Source: Acidobacteriota bacterium
Lineage (GTDB): Bacteria; Acidobacteriota; Thermoanaerobaculia; Gp7-AA8
Assembly: GCA_003223645.1 (NCBI GenBank)
Contig: QHVT01000003.1
Span: 496,001 to 560,000, forward strand
Length of the DNA: 64,000 nucleotides
Direction: 5' to 3'
In this document: one piece after another, positions 14,357 through 57,908 of the stretch
How the letters are laid out: every line of letters begins with the position of its first letter
Position numbering within the stretch: position 1 is the stretch's first letter
Position numbers and translations under genes: made by a program
The notes under the pieces: model-generated
Seen by the model: the letters and a program-made list of their open reading frames with translations, nothing else
The model's database searches: none
Told to the model about the DNA's origin: nothing

Positions 14357-14499
14357 TTATCCCGGGTTTTCCAGTTTATCCCGCGCGGAGACGCGGGATC
14401 TCCGGCGGCACCGCGCGGCCTGTGCCTATGGCACGGATCGTCCGGTGCACCCAGAGATCCCGCGTCTCCGCGCGGGATAAACTGGAAAACCCGGGATAA
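14357..14499. repeat. 46-bp perfect inverted repeat with 51-nt loop
   Basis: The left arm 14,357-14,402 and right arm 14,454-14,499 are exact reverse complements (outer end TTATCCCGGGTTTTCCAG). Each arm contains the smaller palindrome CCCGCG...CGCGGG. It sits between the minisatellite and the start of the DUF1624 gene, ending 12 bases before its ATG, so if transcribed it would be in the 5' leader. Confidence 0.95.
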
Positions 14500-15621: not shown

Positions 15622-15708
15622 GTGGAGCGGCGGCCGCCTCGGCCGCCGAATCGCGGACGTCGTCGATGCGAATGCTCTCCCGGCGGCCGAGGGCGGCCGC
15701 CGCTCCAC
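15622..15708. repeat. Palindromic repeat, GTGGAGCGGC family
   Basis: Arms GTGGAGCGGCGGCCGC... and ...GCGGCCGCCGCTCCAC of about 27 bases close over a loop of about 32 bases. It lies exactly between two convergent genes and could end transcription from both. The same outer arms recur at 26,036, 36,130 and 56,907. Confidence 0.92.
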
Positions 15709-20908: not shown

Positions 20909-23900
20909 TCATCGGACCGGCAACTCGATCACAACGCGTAAGCCGGGATGCACATTCTCTGCATGAATGCGGCCGCCGTGTTCTTCGACCGCTTTGCGCG
21001 CGATCGCGAGTCCGAGTCCGGTGCCCGACGACTTCGTCGAAAAGTACGGATCGAAAATTTTCGACAGCACCTCGGGCGGCACTCCCGGCCCCGAGTCTTC
21101 GACGGAGATCACGACTTTCGAGTCGACGCCGTAGCTGCCGAGGGACACGCGCCCGCCCGGCGCGGCCTGCAGTGCGTTCTCGATGAGATTCGCGACCGCG
21201 CCGCGCAGCAGGCGCTCGTCGCCCGCGAACGTCGACGGCGTCGACGGCTCGATCCGCGCGCGGAATTCGCGGCTTTGCGAATATCCCGCGGCAAGATCGC
21301 CGAGTAGTTTTTTCAGATCGAGCGGTTTGCGCTGCAACTGGCGCAGCGACGCGTAGTCGCTGAAGTCTTTCGACGTCTCGCGCAGGGTGACGACCTGCCG
21401 CAGGATGTTCTCGACCGCGTTGCGCACGACCTGCGGAAGGTTCGGATCTTTGCGCTCCGCGACAGCGCGCAGATGCTCGGCGGTCAGCTGAATCGGCGTG
21501 AGCGGATTCTTGATCTCGTGCGCGACCTGCCGCGCCATCTCGCCCCACGCTTCGAGCCGATTGCTGCGCAGGATCTCCGTGACGTCTTCCGCGATGAGCA
21601 TCTCCTCGTCGCTGTCCGGCAGCGGCACGATCGAGACGCGCAGCGTGCGCTCGTGGCCGTCGATGCGGACGTCGATCTCTTTCGACTCCGTGCGACGTGG
21701 TGTGTGCTCTTGCACGAATTCGCGGACAGCATCGAAGTGACCAGGTGTCATCCCGAGCGGAGCGAGGGACCTGGGCGGGTGGGGCTCGATGAACGTGCCT
21801 GCCGCGCCCGCCCACCCAGGTCCCTCGCTCACGCTCGGGATGACATCGAGCTTAAACAGCCGGCGCGCCATCGCGTTCATGGCGCCGACGTTGCGATCGC
21901 GATCCAGCACGAGGACCGCCGCGTTGATGTTCTCGAGCAGTGTCTGCAATCGGTCGCGCTCGTGGCGGAGATCGTCCTGCTGCCGGCGGATCGAATGGGC
22001 CATGTCGGTGAACGTGGTAACGAGCTTGCCGAGGTCGGGATCGGCGGGGGCGGCGAGGCGGACGTCGAAGTCGCCACGCTCGACCGCGCGCGCGCCGGCG
22101 ATGAGGTTCTGCACCGGGCGGGTGACTCCGGCGGCGACGCGGAACGCGACGGCGATCGCGCCGAGGGCGATGAAGACGAGCAGCATGTAGATCGTCGTCG
22201 CGAGATCGTTCACCTGCGCCTCGATCTGCCGGCCTTGCACGATGAACGGGAGCGCGAGCGTGTAATTGCCGCCCGGTCCGAGGTTGACCGGACTGTAAAT
22301 CTCGATGTACTGCGCGGGGCCGGTCATGCGCGGCGCGCGGACGATCTGCTTTCCGCGCAAGACGATGTCGAGATACGCGTCGCCGGGAAGACGCTCCGAC
22401 TCGACGTGCGCGGCGAAGAGATCGCGGCGGCTCGACGCCATCAGCTGCTCGCCGCGATACAAGTGCAGATCGTGTCCGATCACGCGCGCGAGCCAACTGA
22501 GGATCTCGTCGTCGAGAATCGACGGCGGCTCGGCGGATTGGGCGCCGATGTAATCCTCGATCACGCGCTGCGCTGCGTTCAATGCAGTCTGTCCGCGGTC
22601 GACGTACTCGGTCTCGAGCCGCGTCGCGAGATACGCGCGGACGAACAGCACGAACGCGATCAGCGGCACGACCACGACCGCGGTCAGATAGATCGACGTG
22701 CGCGCGCGGAAGTCGAGCGTGCGCGGCATGCGCGCGAGCTCGACGAGCCGCGGCAGCGAGCGCCACGCGAGGAGCAGCACCGCGACGATCAGCGCCCAGA
22801 TCGCGACGCCTCCGGCTTGCCGCACCTGTTGCGCGGGCGTCGGGATTTGCAGCGGGAAAACGTACAGCGCGTTTTCTGCGCGGCGGATGTACAGCGCCGA
22901 CGCGTCGGGATCGGACGACGCCACCCACACGCCCGTGCCGGGCTTGAGGCGCGTAAAGTAGACGGACGGTTTCTGCGGCAGGCGGTACGTCACGCTGCTC
23001 TGCGCAATCCCCTCGGCGTCATACACCGCGGGCTCGCGCTGCGGGTGGAGGCCGGTGGTGTCGTCGGCGCTGCTGTCGAAAAACTCGCGGTAGATGTCGG
23101 CGAACGCGGTTGCGCCGGGATCGGCGGGATTGACGACGTGGACGCTGCCGAGACCGATGGTGGTGCCGTACACCATCACGTCGAAGTCGTGGTGCATCAG
23201 CACGCGGCGGATGCGTCCGACCTGCAGCACCTCGCCGTCCTGGCTCGACGACGTCTCATCGAACTGCGGCAGTCCGACGCCGAAGCGGCTGATCACCGAG
23301 CGCGTGAATTCGTCGTTGATCGTGATGACCGCGGGCACGCGCCATTTCGACAAGTCGGAGCGCAGCCAGAGCGCGTAGGCGAGGTCCTCGAGACTCATGT
23401 GCCGGTAGTCGTCGGGGAGGATCGTCGTCAGATCGATGCGCGTGAACTCGTCGGTCATCATCGTTGCGATCATCGTGCGCATCTGTCCCGACTCGCCGGC
23501 GACGAGCGGCGCGTAGACGTCGGCGATGAAATTGCGCGCGGTTTCGCGCGAGAAGATCTGCTGCGGGATGAACACGATCGCGGTGACGGCGAGGACGGCG
23601 ATCGCCACGCGCGTGGCGATGCTCCAGCGCGTGAGATCGACGATGCGCAGGACGAAGACGGAGACGCAGAAGCCGAACAGGAGCAGTGCGAAAAAGAGCA
23701 CCGCCTGCACCGGCGTCGACGGCACGATGTGATCGGGCAGCCCGGAGACGCGCGAGTTGGAGACGAAGTTGCCGACGAGCCGCACATAGCCCCACACCGC
23801 GGCGGCCGCGAGCAGCGCGCGCACGAGCGCCGGCAATCGCTGAGAGACGGGACGCAGCAGGACGAGCAACGCGAGGAGCGCGGCGGCGGTGACGAGGAGA

Positions 23901-24805
23901 TCGAACGGCGACTTGCTGAACGGGCCGAGAACTTTCGACGCGTAGATGTCGAAGCTGAAGATGCCGTGAAAGTCTTTCGGAAGATGCAGCGGGAGAAGCG
24001 CGACGCGCGCGAGGATCACGAGCAGGATCGAGAGCCAGCGCGAGCTCGCGAACGTGAGGACGGCGATCGCGCCGACGGCGATCAGCACCGCGGCCACGCT
24101 CTCGCCTTCGGCTCGCGTCGCCTCGACGACGTCTTCTTTCGATCGCGGCGTCACGTCGGCGTACAGCGTCGAGTCCGCGCGCCGCGCGACGACGAATCGC
24201 TGCACGCCGTTTTGCAGTTTCGGAAATCCGCCATGGAAGAACACCGACTTCACCCACGCATCACGCGGCTGCAACTTGTTCGCGCGTCCCGGCACGTTGT
24301 CGATGCGCTCGTACAAATCGACGGTGAAGTTGCCGGCCTTGCGCGTCCGGGTGACGTAGAGATTGGTGACGTCGAATTGAAAGCGGCGGTCGGCGGGCGC
24401 GCGGTAATCTTCGCCCCACCACGCGATCGGCTCGCCGATGTCGTTCAGCACGCGCGCGCCGCGATGGTGATGTCCGTGGACTTCGATCGCCAGGACTTCG
24501 AACAGTCGCGATCGTTCGGACGAAACATGCGAGGCGATGTGCTCCGCGGATTGATCGAGCTCCGACTCGATCACGCCGATGCGCGAGCGCATCTCCGCGA
24601 CGTCACTCGCCAGCTGCTGCTTGGAGCGCGTCGCGAACGAGCGCGCGATCGCGTCCGCGCGCCAGATCGACACCGCGTACGCGAGCGCCGCCAGAAATAG
24701 AAAAAGCGCCGCGAGACGAATCGCCGCAGCGCTTTTCCCGGATGGCGGATGGCGGATGAGGGATGGCGGGTCAGTGGAAGCCATCTGCCGTCTGCCATCC
24801 GCCAT
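20909..24805 (-). CDS. Large membrane sensor histidine kinase, NtrY-like
   Basis: 1298 residues. Membrane segments occur near 32-50, a cluster at about 230-390, and again near 665-690, 705-730 and 868-890, separated by two large extracytoplasmic regions. A HAMP segment (about 890-945), a PAS-like domain (about 955-1060), the H-box [16 protein letters not shown] (about 1095), N-box [10 protein letters not shown] (about 1208) and G-boxes DSGPGVPP and [11 protein letters not shown] complete an NtrY/WalK-type kinase. No response regulator is adjacent, so the partner is encoded elsewhere. Two palindromic repeats are built into the gene: one forms the N-terminal 23 codons including both candidate ATGs, the other is an in-frame insert of about 34 residues in the PAS region. 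The true start is therefore uncertain. Confidence 0.9.
21746..21845. repeat. Palindromic repeat (GTCATCCCGAGC family) inside the kinase PAS region
   Basis: TGTCATCCCGAGCGGAGCGAGGGACC... pairs with ...GGTCCCTCGCTCACGCTCGGGATGACA around a loop. The arms match those of the intergenic copy at 48,268-48,366. Here the element is in frame and encodes about 34 residues ([11 protein letters not shown]...[10 protein letters not shown]). Confidence 0.93.
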
Positions 24806-24806
24806 C
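24740..24806. repeat. GGATGGC-word palindrome at the kinase 5' end
   Basis: GGATGGCGGATGGCGGATG (24,740-24,758) pairs with CATCTGCC..TCTGCCATCCGCCATC (24,782-24,806). The two ATGs available to the sensor kinase both lie in the outer arm. The same word family forms the palindrome at 27,352 and a single arm at 31,548. Confidence 0.9.
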
Positions 24807-24816
24807 GGTTCTTACG

Positions 24817-26035: not shown

Positions 26036-26095
26036 GTGGAGCGGCGGGCTCTTAGCCCGCTGAGGACCCGGCGGGCTAAGAGCCCGCCGCTCCAC
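26036..26095. repeat. Palindromic repeat, GTGGAGCGGC family
   Basis: GTGGAGCGGCGGGCTCTTAG... pairs with ...CTAAGAGCCCGCCGCTCCAC, about 26 bases per arm and an 8-base loop. It ends five bases before the stop codon of the first NamZ gene and can serve as its terminator. Confidence 0.93.
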
Positions 26096-27351: not shown

Positions 27352-27437
27352 GGATGGCAGATGGCAGATGGCAGATGGCGAACGGCGTTTCTTCTGCCAT
27401 CCGCCATCCGCCATCTGCCATCCGCCATCCGCCATCC
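27352..27437. repeat. GGATGGC-word palindrome
   Basis: Left arm 27,352-27,379 is four GGATGGCAGATGGC-type words; right arm 27,396-27,437 is six GCCATCC/GCCATCT words. It fills the gap between the two NamZ genes. Confidence 0.95.
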
Positions 27438-28612: not shown

Positions 28613-28687
28613 CGGACGACCGCCCGCGCCAATGATGAAGGGCGATCGATGAAAGAGGAATCTTTGCTGCTCGACCGCCCGCGCCAG

Positions 28688-28773
28688 CGATGAAGGATGA
28701 AGGATGAAGGATGAAGGATGAAGCTACGCGAGCACTGATTCATCTTTCATCCTTCATCTTTCATCCTTCATCG
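28688..28773. repeat. GGATGAA-word palindrome
   Basis: CGATGAAGGATGAAGGATGAAG... (28,688-28,723) pairs with ...CATCTTTCATCCTTCATCG (28,741-28,773) across a loop of about 17 bases. The left arm is five tandem 7-bp words. It lies between the second NamZ gene and moaB, both on the minus strand. Confidence 0.95.
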
Positions 28774-28799
28774 TTAGCGCGCTCGCGATGCACTACGCC

Positions 28800-36129: not shown

Positions 36130-36200
36130 GTGGAGCGGCGGCCGCTTCGGCCGCCGACCTCTCGCGAGAAACCGGCGGCCGAGAGCGGCCGCCGCTCCAC
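36130..36200. repeat. Palindromic repeat, GTGGAGCGGC family
   Basis: GTGGAGCGGCGGCCGCTTCGG... pairs with ...CCGAGAGCGGCCGCCGCTCCAC, with a loop around CTCTCGCGAGAAAC. Nearly identical arms to 15,622-15,708. A single-arm run of GGAGGCYGG words follows at 36,228-36,284. Confidence 0.93.
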
Positions 36201-36834: not shown

Positions 36835-37769
36835 AGCACCCACGCGCTCTCGCTTATCTCGCCTTCGCCACGATCTGCCTCGTCTGGGGCACGACCTATC
36901 TCGCGATCCGCATCGCGCTGGAGACCATTCCGCCGCTGCTCCTCACCGGCACGCGCTTCGTCGTCGCCGGATCGGTCATGCTCGTCGTCGCGCGTCTTCG
37001 CGGCGAAGCGCTGCCGCGCGATGCGCGCACGCTGGCGAACATCGCGATCGTCGGCATCCTCCTCGTCTCGGTCGGAAACTTCTCCGTCATCTGGGCGGAG
37101 CAGTGGGTGCCGAGCGGACTCGCCGCGCTCCTCGTCGCGACCGCGCCGTTCTGGATGGCGATCATCGAAGGCTTCCGCACGCACGGCGAGCGCGTGAACA
37201 CGCGCGGCGTGATCGGCATGCTCATCGGATTCGCGGGCGTCGCGATGCTCGTCACGCCGCGGGGATCGGGCGGCGCGTGGAACGTGCGCTTCGTCATCGG
37301 CGCGCTCGCGATCCAGGTCGGCTCGTTCTGCTGGCAGCTCGGCTCCGCGCGCGGCAAGTACAACCTGCAGCACGTTCCGCTGCTCGCGTCATCGGCGTTG
37401 CAGATGCTCTTCGGCGGCCTCGTCATCGGTACGCTCGGCCTCGCGTTCGGCGAGACTTCGCGCTACACGCTCAACGCCCGCACGTTCGCCGCACTCGCGT
37501 ACCTCACCCTCGCCGGCTCGATCGTCGGCTACAGCGCGTATCTCTACGCGCTCAAGCATCTCCGCACCACGCAGACGTCGCTCTACACGTACGTGAATCC
37601 GGTCGTCGCCGTCTTCCTCGGCTGGCTGATTCTCAACGAGCCGCTGACGTGGCTGTCGATCGTCGCGATGATCACGATCCTCGCGGGAGTCGCGCTCGTG
37701 CAGACATCGGGACGGGTGCGGGCCGCGAGCATCGCGAGCTCGGAGACTGAAGCGCGAGAAGCGGCGTGA
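36831..37769 (+). CDS. EamA/DMT-family transporter
   Basis: 312 residues from ATG 36,831, overlapping the lrp stop by four bases; the frame opens earlier inside lrp without support. Ten hydrophobic helices in two EamA halves: AYLAFATICLVWGTTYLAIRI (first) and the second half from about residue 150 (QVGSFCWQLGSARG). The family exports small metabolites, often amino acids. Coupling to an Lrp-type regulator supports amino-acid export. Confidence 0.92.
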   Translation: MKHPRALAYLAFATICLVWGTTYLAIRIALETIPPLLLTGTRFVVAGSVMLVVARLRGEALPRDARTLANIAIVGILLVSVGNFSVIWAEQWVPSGLAALLVATAPFWMAIIEGFRTHGERVNTRGVIGMLIGFAGVAMLVTPRGSGGAWNVRFVIGALAIQVGSFCWQLGSARGKYNLQHVPLLASSALQMLFGGLVIGTLGLAFGETSRYTLNARTFAALAYLTLAGSIVGYSAYLYALKHLRTTQTSLYTYVNPVVAVFLGWLILNEPLTWLSIVAMITILAGVALVQTSGRVRAASIASSETEAREAA

Positions 37770-37772
37770 AGC

Positions 37773-37878
37773 AGGCACATAGGCTCACAGGCACATAGGC
37801 TCACAGGCACAGGCTCATAGGCGTAGGTTGTCGGCTCCCGGTTCTCTGAGCCTATGAGCCTATGCGCCTGTGAGCCTG
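37773..37878. repeat. GGCTCACAGGCACATA-word palindrome
   Basis: Left arm words GGCACATAGGCTCACA, GGCACATAGGCTCACA, GGCACAGGCTCATA (37,773-37,822); right arm TGAGCCTATGAGCCTATGCGCCTGTGAGCC (37,847-37,877). It lies between the convergent exporter and DHH genes. Close relatives are at 52,503 and 57,818. Confidence 0.93.
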
Positions 37879-44349: not shown

Positions 44350-46005
44350 ATGTGGCTCGTCCTCGCCGCGGTTCTCACATTTCCGGCCGGCTACGTCAAT
44401 GACAGTCTCTGCGGGGAGTGTCATCGCGAGCTGGCCGCGTCGTACGCGCACGTCGGGATGTCGCAGTCGTTCTCGCGTCCGCGCGCGTCGAAGGTGATCG
44501 AAGACTTCGACGCGGCGCCGTACTTTCACGCGAAGTCGAATCAGTATTTCGAAATGCGCAAACGCGGCGACGACGTCGTGTTTCGCCGCTATCAGCTCGT
44601 CGATGGAAAACAGGTCAACGTCTTCGAGCAGATCGTCGACTGGATCCTCGGCTCAGGCCATCACTCGCGCACGTATCTCTACGCGACGCCGAACGGCGAG
44701 CTATATCAGCTGCCGATCGCGTGGTACACGCAGCCGCGCGCGTGGCGGATGTCGCCCGGCTACGACCGCGCCGATCACGACGGCGTCACGCGGCGCGTGC
44801 GGCACGAATGCATGTTCTGCCACAACGCGTACGCCGGCGTCGCGACGTTGAGCGAGTCGTACTGGCGACCGCAGATGTTTCCGGCCGAGCTGCCGCAGGG
44901 CATCGGCTGCCAGCGCTGTCACGGACCGGGGGCGCGGCATTCGGCGATCGCGCTGACGGGGAACGTCGAGAAGACGAAGTCGTCGATCGTGAACCCGGCG
45001 AAGCTCGACGTGCGGCGGCGGATGGACGTCTGCTACGAATGCCACATGCAGCCGGCGGTCGCGCTCTTCGGCGTGCGCAAATTCGGCCGCGACATCAATT
45101 CATTTCGTCCCGGACAACTGCTCGCGGATTACGCGCCGCCGATCAATATCGCTGAGAAAGACCGATTCGAGATCAATCATCATCCGTATCGGCTCGAACA
45201 AAGCCGCTGCTTTCGCGAGAGCGCGGGCAAGCTGACCTGTCTCACGTGCCACGACCCGCATCGCCGCCTCGCGCGCGAGCAATACCGCGCGGCATGTTTG
45301 TCGTGCCACGAGAAAGCGCATCGCGCAAACGAAGACTGCATCCCCTGCCACATGCCGCAGCGGCGCACGCAGGACGTCGTGCACGTGGTGATGACGGATC
45401 ATTTGATTCAGCGAAAGCCGGAGGCGAACTTGCTCGCGCCGCTCGAAGAGCGCGAGTCGCAAGTCTCAGGCGTGCATTTCCTGTACGGCGGGGACGATCC
45501 GCTGCTGCTGCTCCTCCCGCTCGTGCGCGCGCACGGCGGCGCGAGCGCGGACGAAGTGAATCGGCTCGCGCAGTTGCTCGCGGAGGCGAAGCCGAAAGAG
45601 ATCGAGCCGTATCTCGATCTCTGCGCCGGCTTGCTGCGACAAAAGCGCTACGCCGATCTCGAGAAGACCGCGCAACTCGTGCTCGATCGCTCGCCGAATC
45701 ATCCGATCGCGCTCGAATGGCTCGGCATCGCGCGCACCGCGCTCACCGGCAACCGCAGCGAAGCGATCCGCCTCATCCAGCAGTCGCTGCGTGTCGATCC
45801 GACGCGAGCCGAAGGCGAATTCAACCTCGGCGTCTTCCTCGCCGGCGACGGCCGCACACGCGACGCGATCGCGCACTACCAGCGCGCACTCGCGCTGCGT
45901 CCGAACTTCGTGGCGGCGTGGCTGCGGCTTGCGGAAGCGCAGCGGAAGTTGGGGGACGCGAACGCGATTGAGAGCGAGAAGCGGGCGCGCGCGATCAAAA
46001 ATTGA
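44350..46005 (+). CDS. Multihaem c-type cytochrome with TPR tail
   Basis: 551 residues from ATG 44,350, giving a leader MWLVLAAVLTFPAGYVND. Seven CxxCH haem motifs are visible: CGECH, CMFCH, CQRCH, CYECH, CLTCH, CLSCH and CIPCH. From about residue 430 the C-terminus forms TPR repeats (ALEWLGIARTALTGNRSEAI, GEFNLGVFLAGDGRTRDAI, YQRALALRP). It belongs to periplasmic electron-transfer proteins of the octahaem/NrfH-like type fused to TPRs, common in Acidobacteria and Planctomycetes. Redox partner unknown. Confidence 0.92.
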   Translation: MWLVLAAVLTFPAGYVNDSLCGECHRELAASYAHVGMSQSFSRPRASKVIEDFDAAPYFHAKSNQYFEMRKRGDDVVFRRYQLVDGKQVNVFEQIVDWILGSGHHSRTYLYATPNGELYQLPIAWYTQPRAWRMSPGYDRADHDGVTRRVRHECMFCHNAYAGVATLSESYWRPQMFPAELPQGIGCQRCHGPGARHSAIALTGNVEKTKSSIVNPAKLDVRRRMDVCYECHMQPAVALFGVRKFGRDINSFRPGQLLADYAPPINIAEKDRFEINHHPYRLEQSRCFRESAGKLTCLTCHDPHRRLAREQYRAACLSCHEKAHRANEDCIPCHMPQRRTQDVVHVVMTDHLIQRKPEANLLAPLEERESQVSGVHFLYGGDDPLLLLLPLVRAHGGASADEVNRLAQLLAEAKPKEIEPYLDLCAGLLRQKRYADLEKTAQLVLDRSPNHPIALEWLGIARTALTGNRSEAIRLIQQSLRVDPTRAEGEFNLGVFLAGDGRTRDAIAHYQRALALRPNFVAAWLRLAEAQRKLGDANAIESEKRARAIKN

Positions 46006-46090
46006 CAAGACAAATAGGACAGATAAGACTCATAGGACGTCCTATCGGTCCTATTTGTCTTATTTGTCCTATCTGTCCTATCAGTCCTAC
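46004..46090. repeat. ATAGGACAGA-word palindrome
   Basis: GACAAGACAAATAGGACAGATAAGACTCATAGGAC (46,004-46,038) faces CCTATCGGTCCTATTTGTC...CCTATCAGTCCTAC (46,039-46,090). It overlaps the stop codons of the convergent cytochrome and lipoprotein genes. Same words at 50,724 and 55,323. Confidence 0.95.
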
Positions 46091-46711: not shown

Positions 46712-48259
46712 ATGAAACGTCTGTTCTCTCTCGGTGCAGTGGTCGTTCTCGCTCTTGCCTCGATCGTTCTTGCGCAAACGTCCGGACAGGCGACGCTCCG
46801 CACTCCCGCGGGCGACAAGCCGTTCACGTACGTGCAGCAGTCGGGGCAGACCTACGTCTCCGCTTCCGAAGTGACGGCCGCCCTCGGCGGCACGATCGCG
46901 CCGGACAGCAACGGCTATCGCATCACGATCAACAACGTGGTCGCCGCGTTCGGTCCCGACACGCGCTACGGCGTCGTGCGCGACGACCTGATCGAGATGC
47001 CGGTGCCGCCGATCGCGATCGAAGGCACGCCGTACGTGCCGTGGCAGTTCTTCCAGGGACTGCTCGTGAAAACGTCGTCGATGGATGTGGCGTGGGACGC
47101 AAACGCGCACGTGCTGCTCGTGCGGCCGCTCGCGCAGAACGTCATCAGCGTGCAGCCGTCGGTCGCGAACGTCGAAGGCATCTCGAAAGTCGTCCTCACG
47201 CTCAGCGCGGCGGCCGAGTACACGATCCTCAAAGAACAGCTCGCGTACGTCGTCCGCTTCAAGTCGCCGATCCAGCCGCCGTTCGCGGAGCAGACGGTCG
47301 AGGATCCGTCGATCTCGAAGCTGTCGTTCGCCGGAAATGATCTGCGGATTCAACTGACCGCACCGGACGTCGTCGCCGACGCGTACAAGCTCGAGAATCC
47401 GCCGCGCATCGTCCTCGACTTCCGCAAAGCAGCCGCGCCGATTCCGGGGCAGCTGCCGGCGATGCCGGGACTCAAGCAGCAGGAGCTGCCGGGCATCCGC
47501 ACGATCGTGATCGATCCCGGCCACGGCGGAAAAGACGTGGGCGCAAGCGGCGCGGACGGTCTGCTCGAGAAAGACGTGACGCTGGCAATCGCGCGCAAGC
47601 TCGCAGCGTCGCTGGCGGCGAAGACCGGCGCGCGCATCGTGCTCACGCGCGACGAAGACGCGGTCGTCTCGCTCGATCAGCGGACGGCACTCGCGAATCA
47701 ATACAAGGCCGACCTCTTCCTCTCCGTGCACCTCAATTCGTCGGTTGGCAAAGTGGCGAAGGGGTCGGAGACGTACTTTCTATCGGTCGAAGCATCGGAC
47801 GAGCTCGCGAAGAAAGCGGCGGAGACGGAGAACGCGTCGGCTGCAGCTGCGCCCGTCGCCGATCCCTCCGCATCCGACTTGAAGCTGATCCTGTGGGATC
47901 TCGCGCAGCAGACGTATCTCGACGAGTCGAGCCGCTTCGCGCAGGCGATCCAGGAAGAGATGAACGCGGCGACGGGAGTCGCGAATCGCGGCGTGAAACA
48001 GGCACCGTTCAAAGTGCTCGTCGGCGCGACGATGCCGGCCGCGCTCGTCGAAGTCGGATTCATCAGCAATCCCGACGAAGAGAAGAAGCTGACGTCCGAT
48101 CAGTATCAGACGCTCTTGGTCGACGCGCTCACGCGCGCCGTGCAGCGCTACAAGACCGACTACGAGACGCGCATCGGCATCGTGCAGCCCGCTCCTGCTG
48201 CACCCGCGGCTCCCGCTCCTGCGACGGCGACCGCTCCGGCAACGAGGACGGTGCCTTGA
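46712..48259 (+). CDS. N-acetylmuramoyl-L-alanine amidase (AmiC type)
   Basis: 515 residues from ATG 46,712, with signal MKRLFSLGAVVVLALASIVLA. Residues about 25-125 resemble a copper-amine-oxidase-like/stalk pair of strands; 145-250 an AMIN domain (ISKVVLTLSAAAEYTI, KLENPPRIVLDFRKA); 265-490 the Amidase_3 catalytic domain with IVIDPGHGGKDVGASG, ADLFLSVHLNSS and PAALVEVGFISNPDEE. It cleaves the amide between MurNAc and the stem peptide. An Ala/Pro/Thr-rich tail ends the protein. A GerMN lipoprotein follows. Confidence 0.94.
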   Translation: MKRLFSLGAVVVLALASIVLAQTSGQATLRTPAGDKPFTYVQQSGQTYVSASEVTAALGGTIAPDSNGYRITINNVVAAFGPDTRYGVVRDDLIEMPVPPIAIEGTPYVPWQFFQGLLVKTSSMDVAWDANAHVLLVRPLAQNVISVQPSVANVEGISKVVLTLSAAAEYTILKEQLAYVVRFKSPIQPPFAEQTVEDPSISKLSFAGNDLRIQLTAPDVVADAYKLENPPRIVLDFRKAAAPIPGQLPAMPGLKQQELPGIRTIVIDPGHGGKDVGASGADGLLEKDVTLAIARKLAASLAAKTGARIVLTRDEDAVVSLDQRTALANQYKADLFLSVHLNSSVGKVAKGSETYFLSVEASDELAKKAAETENASAAAAPVADPSASDLKLILWDLAQQTYLDESSRFAQAIQEEMNAATGVANRGVKQAPFKVLVGATMPAALVEVGFISNPDEEKKLTSDQYQTLLVDALTRAVQRYKTDYETRIGIVQPAPAAPAAPAPATATAPATRTVP

Positions 48260-48267
48260 CACCCGAG

Positions 48268-48366
48268 TGTCATCCCGAGCGTAGCGAGGGACCTGGGCGG
48301 GTGGGGCTGCGTTGCATGATCTTCGCGCCCCACCCGCCCGGGTCCCTCGCTACGCTCGGGATGACA
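48268..48366. repeat. Palindromic repeat, GTCATCCCGAGC family
   Basis: Arms of 40 bases, 48,268-48,307 (TGTCATCCCGAGCGTAGCGA...) and 48,327-48,366, are near-perfect complements; the loop is 19 bases. The right arm ends CGGGATGACA, and the ATG in it starts the next gene. The same element sits in frame in the sensor kinase at 21,746. Confidence 0.96.
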
Positions 48367-48888
48367 GTGTTTGTCGCGGTCTCGCTGCTAGCCGGCGCGT
48401 GCTCGAAAAAAAACAACATCACCGCGAACATCAATGCCGCGAATCGCGTCGCCGTGCGGCCGGTGCGTCTCTACTACGAGTCCGAGCAGTTGATGCTCGT
48501 GGCCGAGACGCGAAACATCGCGTTGCCGGAGAGTCCGGCCGCCGCGATTCCCGTCGTTGCGCGCGAGCTGATGAAAGGTCCTGCGACTCCGGTCGGCGCG
48601 CGCCTCTTTCCGCCCGACACCCTCGTTCGCGGCGCCTACCTCTTGCCGGGCGGAACCGTCATCGTGGACCTCGGCGGAGCCACGCTGAGCCAGGGATGGG
48701 GCGCCGGAAGTCATCACGAGCTGATGGCCGCGAGCTCCCTCGTCCAAACGCTGGCTGTCAACTTCGCTGACGCTCGTAGAGTCCGGTTCATCATCAACGG
48801 GGCACCCGCGGAAACGCTCGCCGGACACGTTTCTCTCTCCCGGTCTTTGTCGCCGATGCCGCAATTCGTCGACCCCCGTTTCCGTTAA
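48361..48888 (+). CDS. GerMN-domain lipoprotein
   Basis: 175 residues from ATG 48,361. Lipoprotein signal MTVFVAVSLLAGACSKK with the Cys at 14. GerMN signatures: PVRLYYESEQLMLVAETR, ARELMKGPATPVGARLFPPDT, VDLGG and a final ADARRVRFIINGAPAETLAGH. GerMN proteins bind peptidoglycan-related ligands and accompany amidases in several phyla; the gene follows amiC. Its start codon lies within the preceding palindrome. Confidence 0.9.
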   Translation: MTVFVAVSLLAGACSKKNNITANINAANRVAVRPVRLYYESEQLMLVAETRNIALPESPAAAIPVVARELMKGPATPVGARLFPPDTLVRGAYLLPGGTVIVDLGGATLSQGWGAGSHHELMAASSLVQTLAVNFADARRVRFIINGAPAETLAGHVSLSRSLSPMPQFVDPRFR

Positions 48889-50723: not shown

Positions 50724-50804
50724 ATTGATAGGACTAATAGGACGGATAGGACAGATAGGACGTATAGGACGACCTATCTGTCCTATCCGTCCTATTAGTC
50801 CTAC
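50724..50804. repeat. ATAGGACAGA-word palindrome
   Basis: GATAGGACTAATAGGACGGATAGGACAGATAGGAC pairs with CCTATCTGTCCTATCCGTCCTATTAGTCCTAC. It contains the stop codon of the GT2 gene and ends at the tmk start, so it is both terminator-like and leader for tmk. Confidence 0.95.
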
Positions 50805-52504: not shown

Positions 52505-52576
52505 AGGCTCAAAGGCTCAAAGACGCAGAGGCTCAAAGCGGCTCCTGTGAGCCTCTGAGCCTGTGAGCCTATGTGC

Positions 52577-52579
<3 letters not shown>
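52503..52579. repeat. GGCTCAAA-word palindrome
   Basis: ATAGGCTCAAAGGCTCAAAG...GAGGCTC (left) against GTGAGCCTCTGAGCCTGTGAGCCTAT (right). It overlaps the ATG of the SDR gene and the stop codon of acs. Confidence 0.9.
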
Positions 52580-54532
<1,953 letters not shown>

Positions 54533-54614: not shown

Positions 54615-55310
54615 TTAAACGCGAGCGAGTGACGCCGCGATCGACTTGAACATCAACAGCCCCGATGCGCCGCCGAGGAGCGATTCCGAGCAGCGCTCGG
54701 GATGCGGCATGAGGCCAACGACGTTGCGCGCGCGGTTGCAGATGCCGGCGATGTTGCGCGCGGAGCCGTTCGGGTTCGCGTCCGACGTCAACCGTCCTTC
54801 TTCATCGCTGTAGCTGAAGATCACCTGGCGGTTGCGCTCGAGCGCGTCGAGCGTTTCATCGTCGGCATAGTAGTTCCCCTCGCCGTGCGCGATCGGCACG
54901 CGGAAGACTTGCCCGCGTTCATACAACGACGTGAACGGCGTGTCCGTCTCTTCGACGCGAATGTGCACGTCGCGTCCGAGGAAGCGGAGGTGTTGATTGC
55001 GCATCAGCGCGCCGGGCAAAAGACCGACTTCGGTCAGCACCTGGAACCCGTTGCAGATGCCGAGCACAAGTCCGCCGGCGTCGGCGTGGCGGCGAATCGG
55101 CTCCATGATCGGCGCGAACTTCGCGAGCGCGCCGGCGCGGAGGTAATCGCCGTACGCGAAGCCGCCGGGGACGATCACGCAGTCCGCGCCTTTGAGGTCG
55201 GTGTCCTTGTGCCACAGCGGCTCTGCGTCCGCGCCGAGAACGTCTTTCGCGACGTGCAGCGCATCGTGATCGCAATTCGAGCCCGGCAGGAGGACGACGC
55301 CGAATTTCAT
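54615..55310 (-). CDS. purQ: Phosphoribosylformylglycinamidine synthase subunit PurQ
   Basis: 231 residues. Class I glutaminase: [11 protein letters not shown] with nucleophile Cys86, and HPER ([12 protein letters not shown]) carrying the catalytic His-Glu. It supplies ammonia to PurL for the fourth step of purine synthesis. The small partner PurS lies 1.3 kb upstream, with a propeller gene between them; PurL is not in the window. Confidence 0.96.
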
Positions 55311-55322
55311 CGGAGGAAGTTT

Positions 55323-55525
55323 AGGACAGATAGGACCGATAGGACATCTGGGACAGATAGGACATCTTGCGGCGTCCTAGCCGCCACGGGCGGCTGCGTG
55401 GATTGCTCCGCCTTGCGGCCTGCTTGCCGCCACGTCACGAATGCGGCTTCGAGCGGCTCAACGCGCCTGAGATCGTCGTTTCTGCCGCGCAGGCTCCTAG
55501 AAGGTCCTATCGGTCCTATCTGTCG
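55323..55525. repeat. ATAGGACAGA-word palindrome with long loop
   Basis: GGACAGATAGGACCGATAGGACATC... (55,323-55,366) pairs with AGGTCCTATCGGTCCTATCTGTC (55,502-55,524) around a loop of about 130 bases. A second small hairpin, GAGCAGACTGGAAAGCCTGCTCCAC, follows at 55,528-55,552. Together they fill the gap between purQ and the propeller gene. Confidence 0.8.
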
Positions 55526-56906: not shown

Positions 56907-56976
56907 GTGGAGCGGCGCCCGCTTTCGGGCGCCGGTTTCGCGATACGCCGGCGGCCGAGGGCGGCCGCCGCTCCAC
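56907..56976. repeat. Palindromic repeat, GTGGAGCGGC family
   Basis: GTGGAGCGGCGCCCGCTTTCGGGCGCCGG... ends in ...GAGGGCGGCCGCCGCTCCAC. The outer 10 bases pair exactly; the inner left arm folds on itself. It lies after the WalJ-like gene and before purS. Confidence 0.9.
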
Positions 56977-57817: not shown

Positions 57818-57908
57818 CAGGCGCACAGGCGCACAGGCGCACAGGCTCATAGGCGCATCGATCCTCTGCGCCAATGAGCCTGTGCGCCCGTGAGCCTGAA
57901 CGCCTATA
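57818..57908. repeat. GGCGCACAGGCTCATA-word palindrome
   Basis: CAGGCGCACAGGCGCACAGGCGCACAGGCTCATAGGCG pairs with GCGCCAATGAGCCTGTGCGCCCGTGAGCCTGAACGCC. It lies in the divergent region between the WalJ-like gene and murA, 13 bases before the murA ATG. Words match 37,773 and 52,503. Confidence 0.93.

Follow-up and report, generated by a model that had tools for sequence, protein, structure and literature searches.

The stretch of DNA analysed here (64,000 nucleotides, referred to as the window) encodes an NtrY-like sensor histidine kinase whose PAS domain carries a palindromic element in frame. A second copy of the same element lies at the 5' end of a lipoprotein gene. The features concerned are:

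20909-24805, minus strand: NtrY-like sensor histidine kinase gene, 1298 aa, open throughout with the insertion; HAMP at residues 891-940, PAS_4 at 957-1077, HisKA at 1087-1155, HATPase_c at 1195-1297
21746-21845, no strand assigned: palindromic element in frame in the kinase PAS domain, at about residues 987-1020
21746-21771, plus strand: arm of the kinase copy with a GNA loop, TGTC tag followed by a TCCC-GA-GC-(GGA)-GC-GA-GGGA mini-hairpin unit
21819-21845, minus strand: arm of the kinase copy with a GNNA loop, TGTC tag followed by a TCCC-GA-GC-(GTGA)-GC-GA-GGGA mini-hairpin unit
48268-48366, no strand assigned: the element again (second copy), 5' end of the lipoprotein gene
48361-48888, plus strand: lipoprotein gene (MTVFVAVSLLAGAC...), with its reading begun at the ATG of the element's terminal GGGATGACA

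The palindromic segment of the kinase gene

The segment at 21746-21845 is a 100-bp near-perfect hairpin. As single-stranded DNA it folds at -50/-50.7 kcal/mol, compared to -22 +/- 2.5 kcal/mol for shuffled sequences (z ~ -11, no shuffle being as stable), and as RNA at -86 kcal/mol. This confirms the palindrome at the exact position given in the first-pass annotation, which had also described it as coding in frame and without a stop after FKLD in the PAS region. The minus strand indeed reads 33 residues with no stop codon after ARRLFKLD. The window contains four occurrences of the arm motif (a pair of arms in each of the two copies) where none is expected, and an Rfam search of the window returned one tRNA and nothing else. 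In an AlphaFold2 model based on 21 aligned sequences of the region, the insert has a pLDDT below 50 and lies between two PAS helices, while most of the remaining PAS region exceeds 90. The insert is thus predicted to be a disordered loop within an otherwise confident PAS fold, and the model supports the view that it is tolerated there.

Orthologues and homologues of the kinase were sought across 61 genomes. In many family members the match stops at residues 985-992 and restarts at 1023-1026, a break that falls exactly at the element. The same-genus orthologue reads ARRLFGADAFPRFDEVREF at the insertion site and lacks the 33-residue segment; the gap is 33 aa over the compared region, with 32 at the site and one elsewhere. 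The segment is also absent from the aligned family-level orthologues, one same-order orthologue and ~12 class-level homologues. As some genera have ~8 other residues in this PAS loop, which reduces the gap to ~25 aa, the site was already length-variable. The expectation of a 33-34-residue gap precisely at the element therefore held for the place of the break and for its size within the genus, but not for its size elsewhere. A similar segment in unrelated genera, which had been named as the observation that would speak against an insertion, was found in none of the kinase orthologues and class-level homologues compared.

At the N-terminus, the matches of the closest relatives begin only at about residue 13-29, and the first ~20 residues of the kinase therefore also look lineage-specific. 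These residues and the start codon derive from a different palindrome, of the class found at 24739-24809. Palindromes of this second class are inverted arrays of 7-9-nt tandem units (GGATGGCAGATGGC../..GCCATCTGCCATCC; GATAGGACA units), and the window contains further repeats besides:

24739-24809, 27352-27437, 28680-28781, 46004-46089, 50729-50803 and 55302-55524: second-class palindromes
37768-37878, 52544-52583 and 57819-57905: further second-class palindromes
15622-15708, 26036-26095, 36130-36200 and 56907-56976: REPIN-like family GTGGAGCGGC..GCCGCTCCAC, also present at locus L139
13772-14372: a 21-bp unit repeated in tandem some 20 times or more, reading ICNRPVF on the minus strand
14357-14499: a 70-nt inverted repeat that follows the 21-bp tandem repeat

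The copy at 48268 is the same element, as the first-pass annotation had it, but it is not plainly intergenic: it replaces the start region of the lipoprotein gene. The lipoprotein of relatives has its own GTG start and a basic MKRA/MRRA n-region (MKRAVVV.., MRRAS..), both of which are missing here. Translation probably starts either at the ATG inside the element's own GGGATGACA or at an alternative TTG at 48256, which is in frame through the element.

A dispersed family of paired mini-hairpins

Used as a BLAST query, the element gave 105 matches on both strands of its own genome. A search pattern for the arm matched 82 times in the forward and 82 times in the reverse orientation (a reversed control pattern matched nowhere), and the arms were mostly paired within ~110 bp as inverted dimers. 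We read 54 full or partial copies together with their flanks. The 42 complete copies align with constant ends, TGTCATCC..GGATGACA (also written TGTCATCCCGAGCG..CGCTCGGGATGACA), and each of them carries a (T)GTC tag at either outer end; their core measures 90-106 bp with a variable middle, and a few form tandem arrays. No target-site duplication of 2-9 bp was found in these 42 copies, matches of 2-3 bp being near chance.

The arms themselves are highly uniform. In a search whose pattern left the loop ends, the mismatch positions and one stem pair free, each of the 78 own arms conformed to TCCC-GA-GC-G(N or NN)A-GC-GA-GGGA (two of them with A for the pairing G), and the loops were of the GNA (3 nt) or GNNA (4 nt) type throughout. 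Two of the nine stem positions, ATCCYGAGC/GCGARGGAY, are invariant G.A mismatches, and these GA/GA positions are kept in 88/91 and 22/24 arms of relatives. A T-A pair replaces C-G in 11 arms, the first stem A opposes C in most own copies and T in the CT/AG subtype, and most arms have CCT(GGG) or TC as their tail. A DNA energy model folds each arm as a mini-hairpin, and both GC-GNA-GC and GC-GNNA-GC are reported to be extraordinarily stable DNA mini-hairpins (PMC4686876). Every arm is in itself a TGTC-tagged mini-hairpin of this stable type. The two arms of one copy share the same type of mini-loop in 15/38 cases, with ~12 expected by chance, and therefore behave as separate units that are not kept identical. 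Part of the conservation and covariation within arms can be explained by shared ancestry, as few lineages were sampled; the structural argument lies in the restriction of variation to the loop centre, where one or two bases of any kind occur.

A stricter arm pattern found 128 arms in this genome and 0 in a genome of the same genus, and a second same-genus pair had 51 and 0. The distribution of the element is patchy even within genera. Among named genomes, the exact pattern is found in Acidobacteria 'gp7' assemblies and in other members of the Acidobacteria, a few Terriglobia among them. Across the phylum, the core 26-mer is present in 27 of 297 sampled genomes (control 0), in many of which the CT/AG variant stands in for CC/GG. 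Plasmid and phage collections gave no full-length match to the element, and a 58-nt query joining two CT/AG-subtype arms matched only cyanobacterial plasmids in these collections. A literature search with the peptide string of the insert gave no match. At one locus (L073, 2035-2126), a TGTC element is nested in a GTGGAGCGGCGGGCTC..GAGCCCGCCGCTCCA palindrome of the REPIN-like family.

Copies within other protein genes

Ten copies lie in frame inside conserved genes, each absent from the relatives compared. Besides the NtrY kinase, the nine hosts encode an SSF symporter, the tRNA-lysidine synthetase TilS (a tandem copy), a GH3 protein, a TMEM260-like protein, an M20 peptidase, the thiamine-phosphate kinase ThiL, a MacB/FtsX ABC permease, a membrane protein and a TRAM-containing methyltransferase, the last named after a weak Pfam match. 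The gap to relatives is clean at the TMEM260-like and MacB genes, with a net gain of 34 residues at the former, while GH3 and M20 gained only ~17 residues and their native loop has diverged. There, insertion may have been accompanied by a loss of target residues or followed by later change; as the nearest genome compared is a genus-level relative and net gains vary, such losses and changes are inseparable from the insertion itself.

Other copies sit at gene ends. Four lie immediately 3' of the overlapping start (GTGA, GTGA, ATGA and TTGA) of genes for secreted proteins or lipoproteins, in the n-region of the signal peptide. Two lengthen C-termini, those of an FtsQ-like protein (by comparison with the same-genus genome) and of an Fe-S oxidoreductase (from sequence alone). 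A copy in an alpha/beta hydrolase gene (L047) and the terminal copies at L061/L052 look in frame as well, as judged from their own loci. In genomes of relatives, separate in-frame cases were found in DUF2400 and CT_C_D carboxyltransferase genes.

When the flanks of each complete copy were scanned heuristically for coding signal, no gene proved to be broken out of frame. Since open frames were what first led to the copies, the in-frame excess is biased and does not translate into a probability. The idea that the element is selected for open reading frames is not supported, since its copies are no more open than shuffled sequences (3.1 versus 3.5 of six frames). The in-frame pattern would therefore most simply reflect selection after insertion.

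Two of the genes with an element, or their orthologues, harbour palindromes of other kinds. In the SSF gene, another palindrome, of the unrelated GGATGGC type (MADGGWQMAKAPKLPSAIRHLPS, 29-bp stem; L054 ~2285-2360), is likewise in frame. In the same-genus genome, the orthologue (L198) of the L043 gene carries a different long palindrome (GAATGAAGAACGCAGAACGCAG..) at the n-region where this genome has the TGTC element, suggesting that this signal-peptide n-region is a tolerant site that was struck twice.

Origin of the segment and comparison with known systems

The kinase segment is very probably a mobile element that was inserted in frame, one of a dispersed set of non-autonomous palindromes of the TGTC/CGTC-tagged REP-dimer type. 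Two inverted REP-like units with outermost TGTC tags form one long hairpin, which would have entered the kinase gene once this lineage had diverged from its closest sequenced relative. With the reading frame preserved and no stop introduced, the kinase would have gained ~33 residues as a disordered PAS loop. The element may move as single-stranded DNA whose GNA/GNNA mini-hairpins are recognised by an enzyme acting in trans. Selection would have removed gene-breaking copies and left those that are intergenic or in frame in tolerant loops, n-regions and C-terminal tails. A wider and decidedly more tentative proposal is that a TGTC family with exceptionally stable mini-hairpin arms (GC-GNA-GC/GC-GNNA-GC with tandem G.A flanks) is spread as single-stranded DNA by a putative enzyme in Acidobacteriota, that it recurrently supplies protein segments, start codons, n-regions and C-terminal tails, and that arms are exchanged independently between copies.

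A classical MITE, i.e., a DDE-type insertion sequence that has lost its interior, retains terminal inverted repeats and is moved by an ordinary IS transposase, could account for the length of ~90-106 bp, the inverted ends and the dispersed copies. We nevertheless consider it unlikely, as the inverted repeat covers almost the whole element and not just its ends, target-site duplications of 4-9 bp occur in 0/42 copies, no IS with these ends was seen, and among the listed arm positions no pair 1-3 kb apart hints at a full-length IS. Mobilisation as a GTAG-type REPIN by the genome's RAYT, an HUH Y1 transposase, seems distinctly unlikely. As in GTAG REPINs and BIMEs, the present elements are inverted pairs of REP-like hairpins that are non-autonomous, show no target duplication and are preferentially intergenic, and a Y1 transposase gene is present in the genome. 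However, the tag is TGTC and not GTAG, and the sole Y1 (RAYT) gene, at C4:53122, is flanked on both sides by relatives of the different hairpin family GTGGAGCGGC..GCCGCTCCAC. A TCATCC arm was found within ~1.5 kb of RAYT at 0/30 loci from 15 genomes (the own RAYT and 29 of relatives). We therefore rejected the RAYT, whose flanks are without the arm, as a partner of the TGTC element; together with the REPIN-like family it likely constitutes a REPtron.

An origin of the segment as an ordinary functional part of the kinase, selected and evolved as protein, is hardly credible in spite of its in-frame reading within a conserved domain: the same DNA recurs at dozens of unrelated sites, in either orientation and several frames, all orthologues compared lack it, and the model shows it as disordered. 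We likewise give almost no weight to an assembly or binning artefact of a metagenome-derived genome. Repeats are prone to misassembly, and the genomes of the host and its relatives are probably assemblies, but the kinase gene runs on without a break, in frame to either side of the element, the same in-frame pattern recurs in ten independent genes, and the family is also found, again in frame, in independently assembled gp7 genomes.

On the reading as an inserted REP dimer, the process can be dated by comparing close strains, the copies in conserved genes being absent from the same-genus genome. Where predicted proteins contain peptides like the one encoded by the element, these can be interpreted as insertions and not as domains. 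For the missing mobilising enzyme of CGTC-type repeats, the mini-hairpin architecture provides a specific signal whose recognition can be tested.

The closest described relatives in architecture are the CGTC-tagged REP units, with TGTC and CCTC as variants of the unpaired tag. According to the survey of GTAG- and CGTC-tagged REPs (PMC3733652, BMC Genomics 2013), these have stems of 8-9 positions starting with a complementary A and T and mostly form inverted dimers without a transposase, with some copies inside ORFs; loops are 4-5 nt long and of a few sequence types, and the unpaired tail fits CCA in 'most', not all. The present family has the same tag, inverted dimers, some copies in ORFs and no adjacent tyrosine transposase at the RAYT loci surveyed. 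Its stem, of nine positions starting with AT, and its short loops resemble the published ones in part. Unlike the CGTC REPs of the survey, it has two conserved G.A stem mismatches, 3-4 nt GNA/GNNA loops, a CC(T) rather than a CCA tail, an outer A left unpaired in this lineage, and a much longer hairpin (40-bp arms) that joins the two units. The family is therefore CGTC-like and is not filed as a member of the CGTC REPs: tag, dimer and lack of transposase fit, stem and loop do so in part, and the usual CCA tail does not.

Most discussion of protein-coding palindromes concerns Rickettsia and Wolbachia, with genome decay as the usual setting. The Rickettsia palindromic elements (RPEs) follow the same working pattern as the present family (PMC10969869). 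Like RPE-1, RPE-4 and RPE-6, palindromes of ~100-150 bp that lie in frame in many unrelated genes and add tens of residues, the element is found in frame in unrelated protein genes, here in 10 that were checked against orthologues. Unlike the RPEs, which were compared by description, it resides in a non-rickettsial Acidobacteriota lineage. The Rickettsia parallel drawn by the first-pass annotation thus stands as an analogy and does not extend to RPE membership. In PMC3733652, two CGTC families are equated with RPE-6 and RPE-4 of Rickettsia conorii, and a distant kinship through CGTC-tagged REPs may exist. With at least ten coding palindromes in conserved genes of one soil acidobacterium, the process also works beyond intracellular parasites.

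Plasmids of Planktothrix agardhii (L180, L181) carry TGTCATCCTGAG-type units in frame at differing positions in MmeI-like and BREX PglX genes. Like the present family, these TGTCATCCTGAG..GGATCTC and TCAGAATGAC units are read in frame (VILSETKDLSG..SSQAQND), in restriction/BREX methylase genes; unlike it, they are cyanobacterial, AT-richer and clustered, and a relationship is suggested by the motif only. The acidobacterial element is a new family of an already known type.
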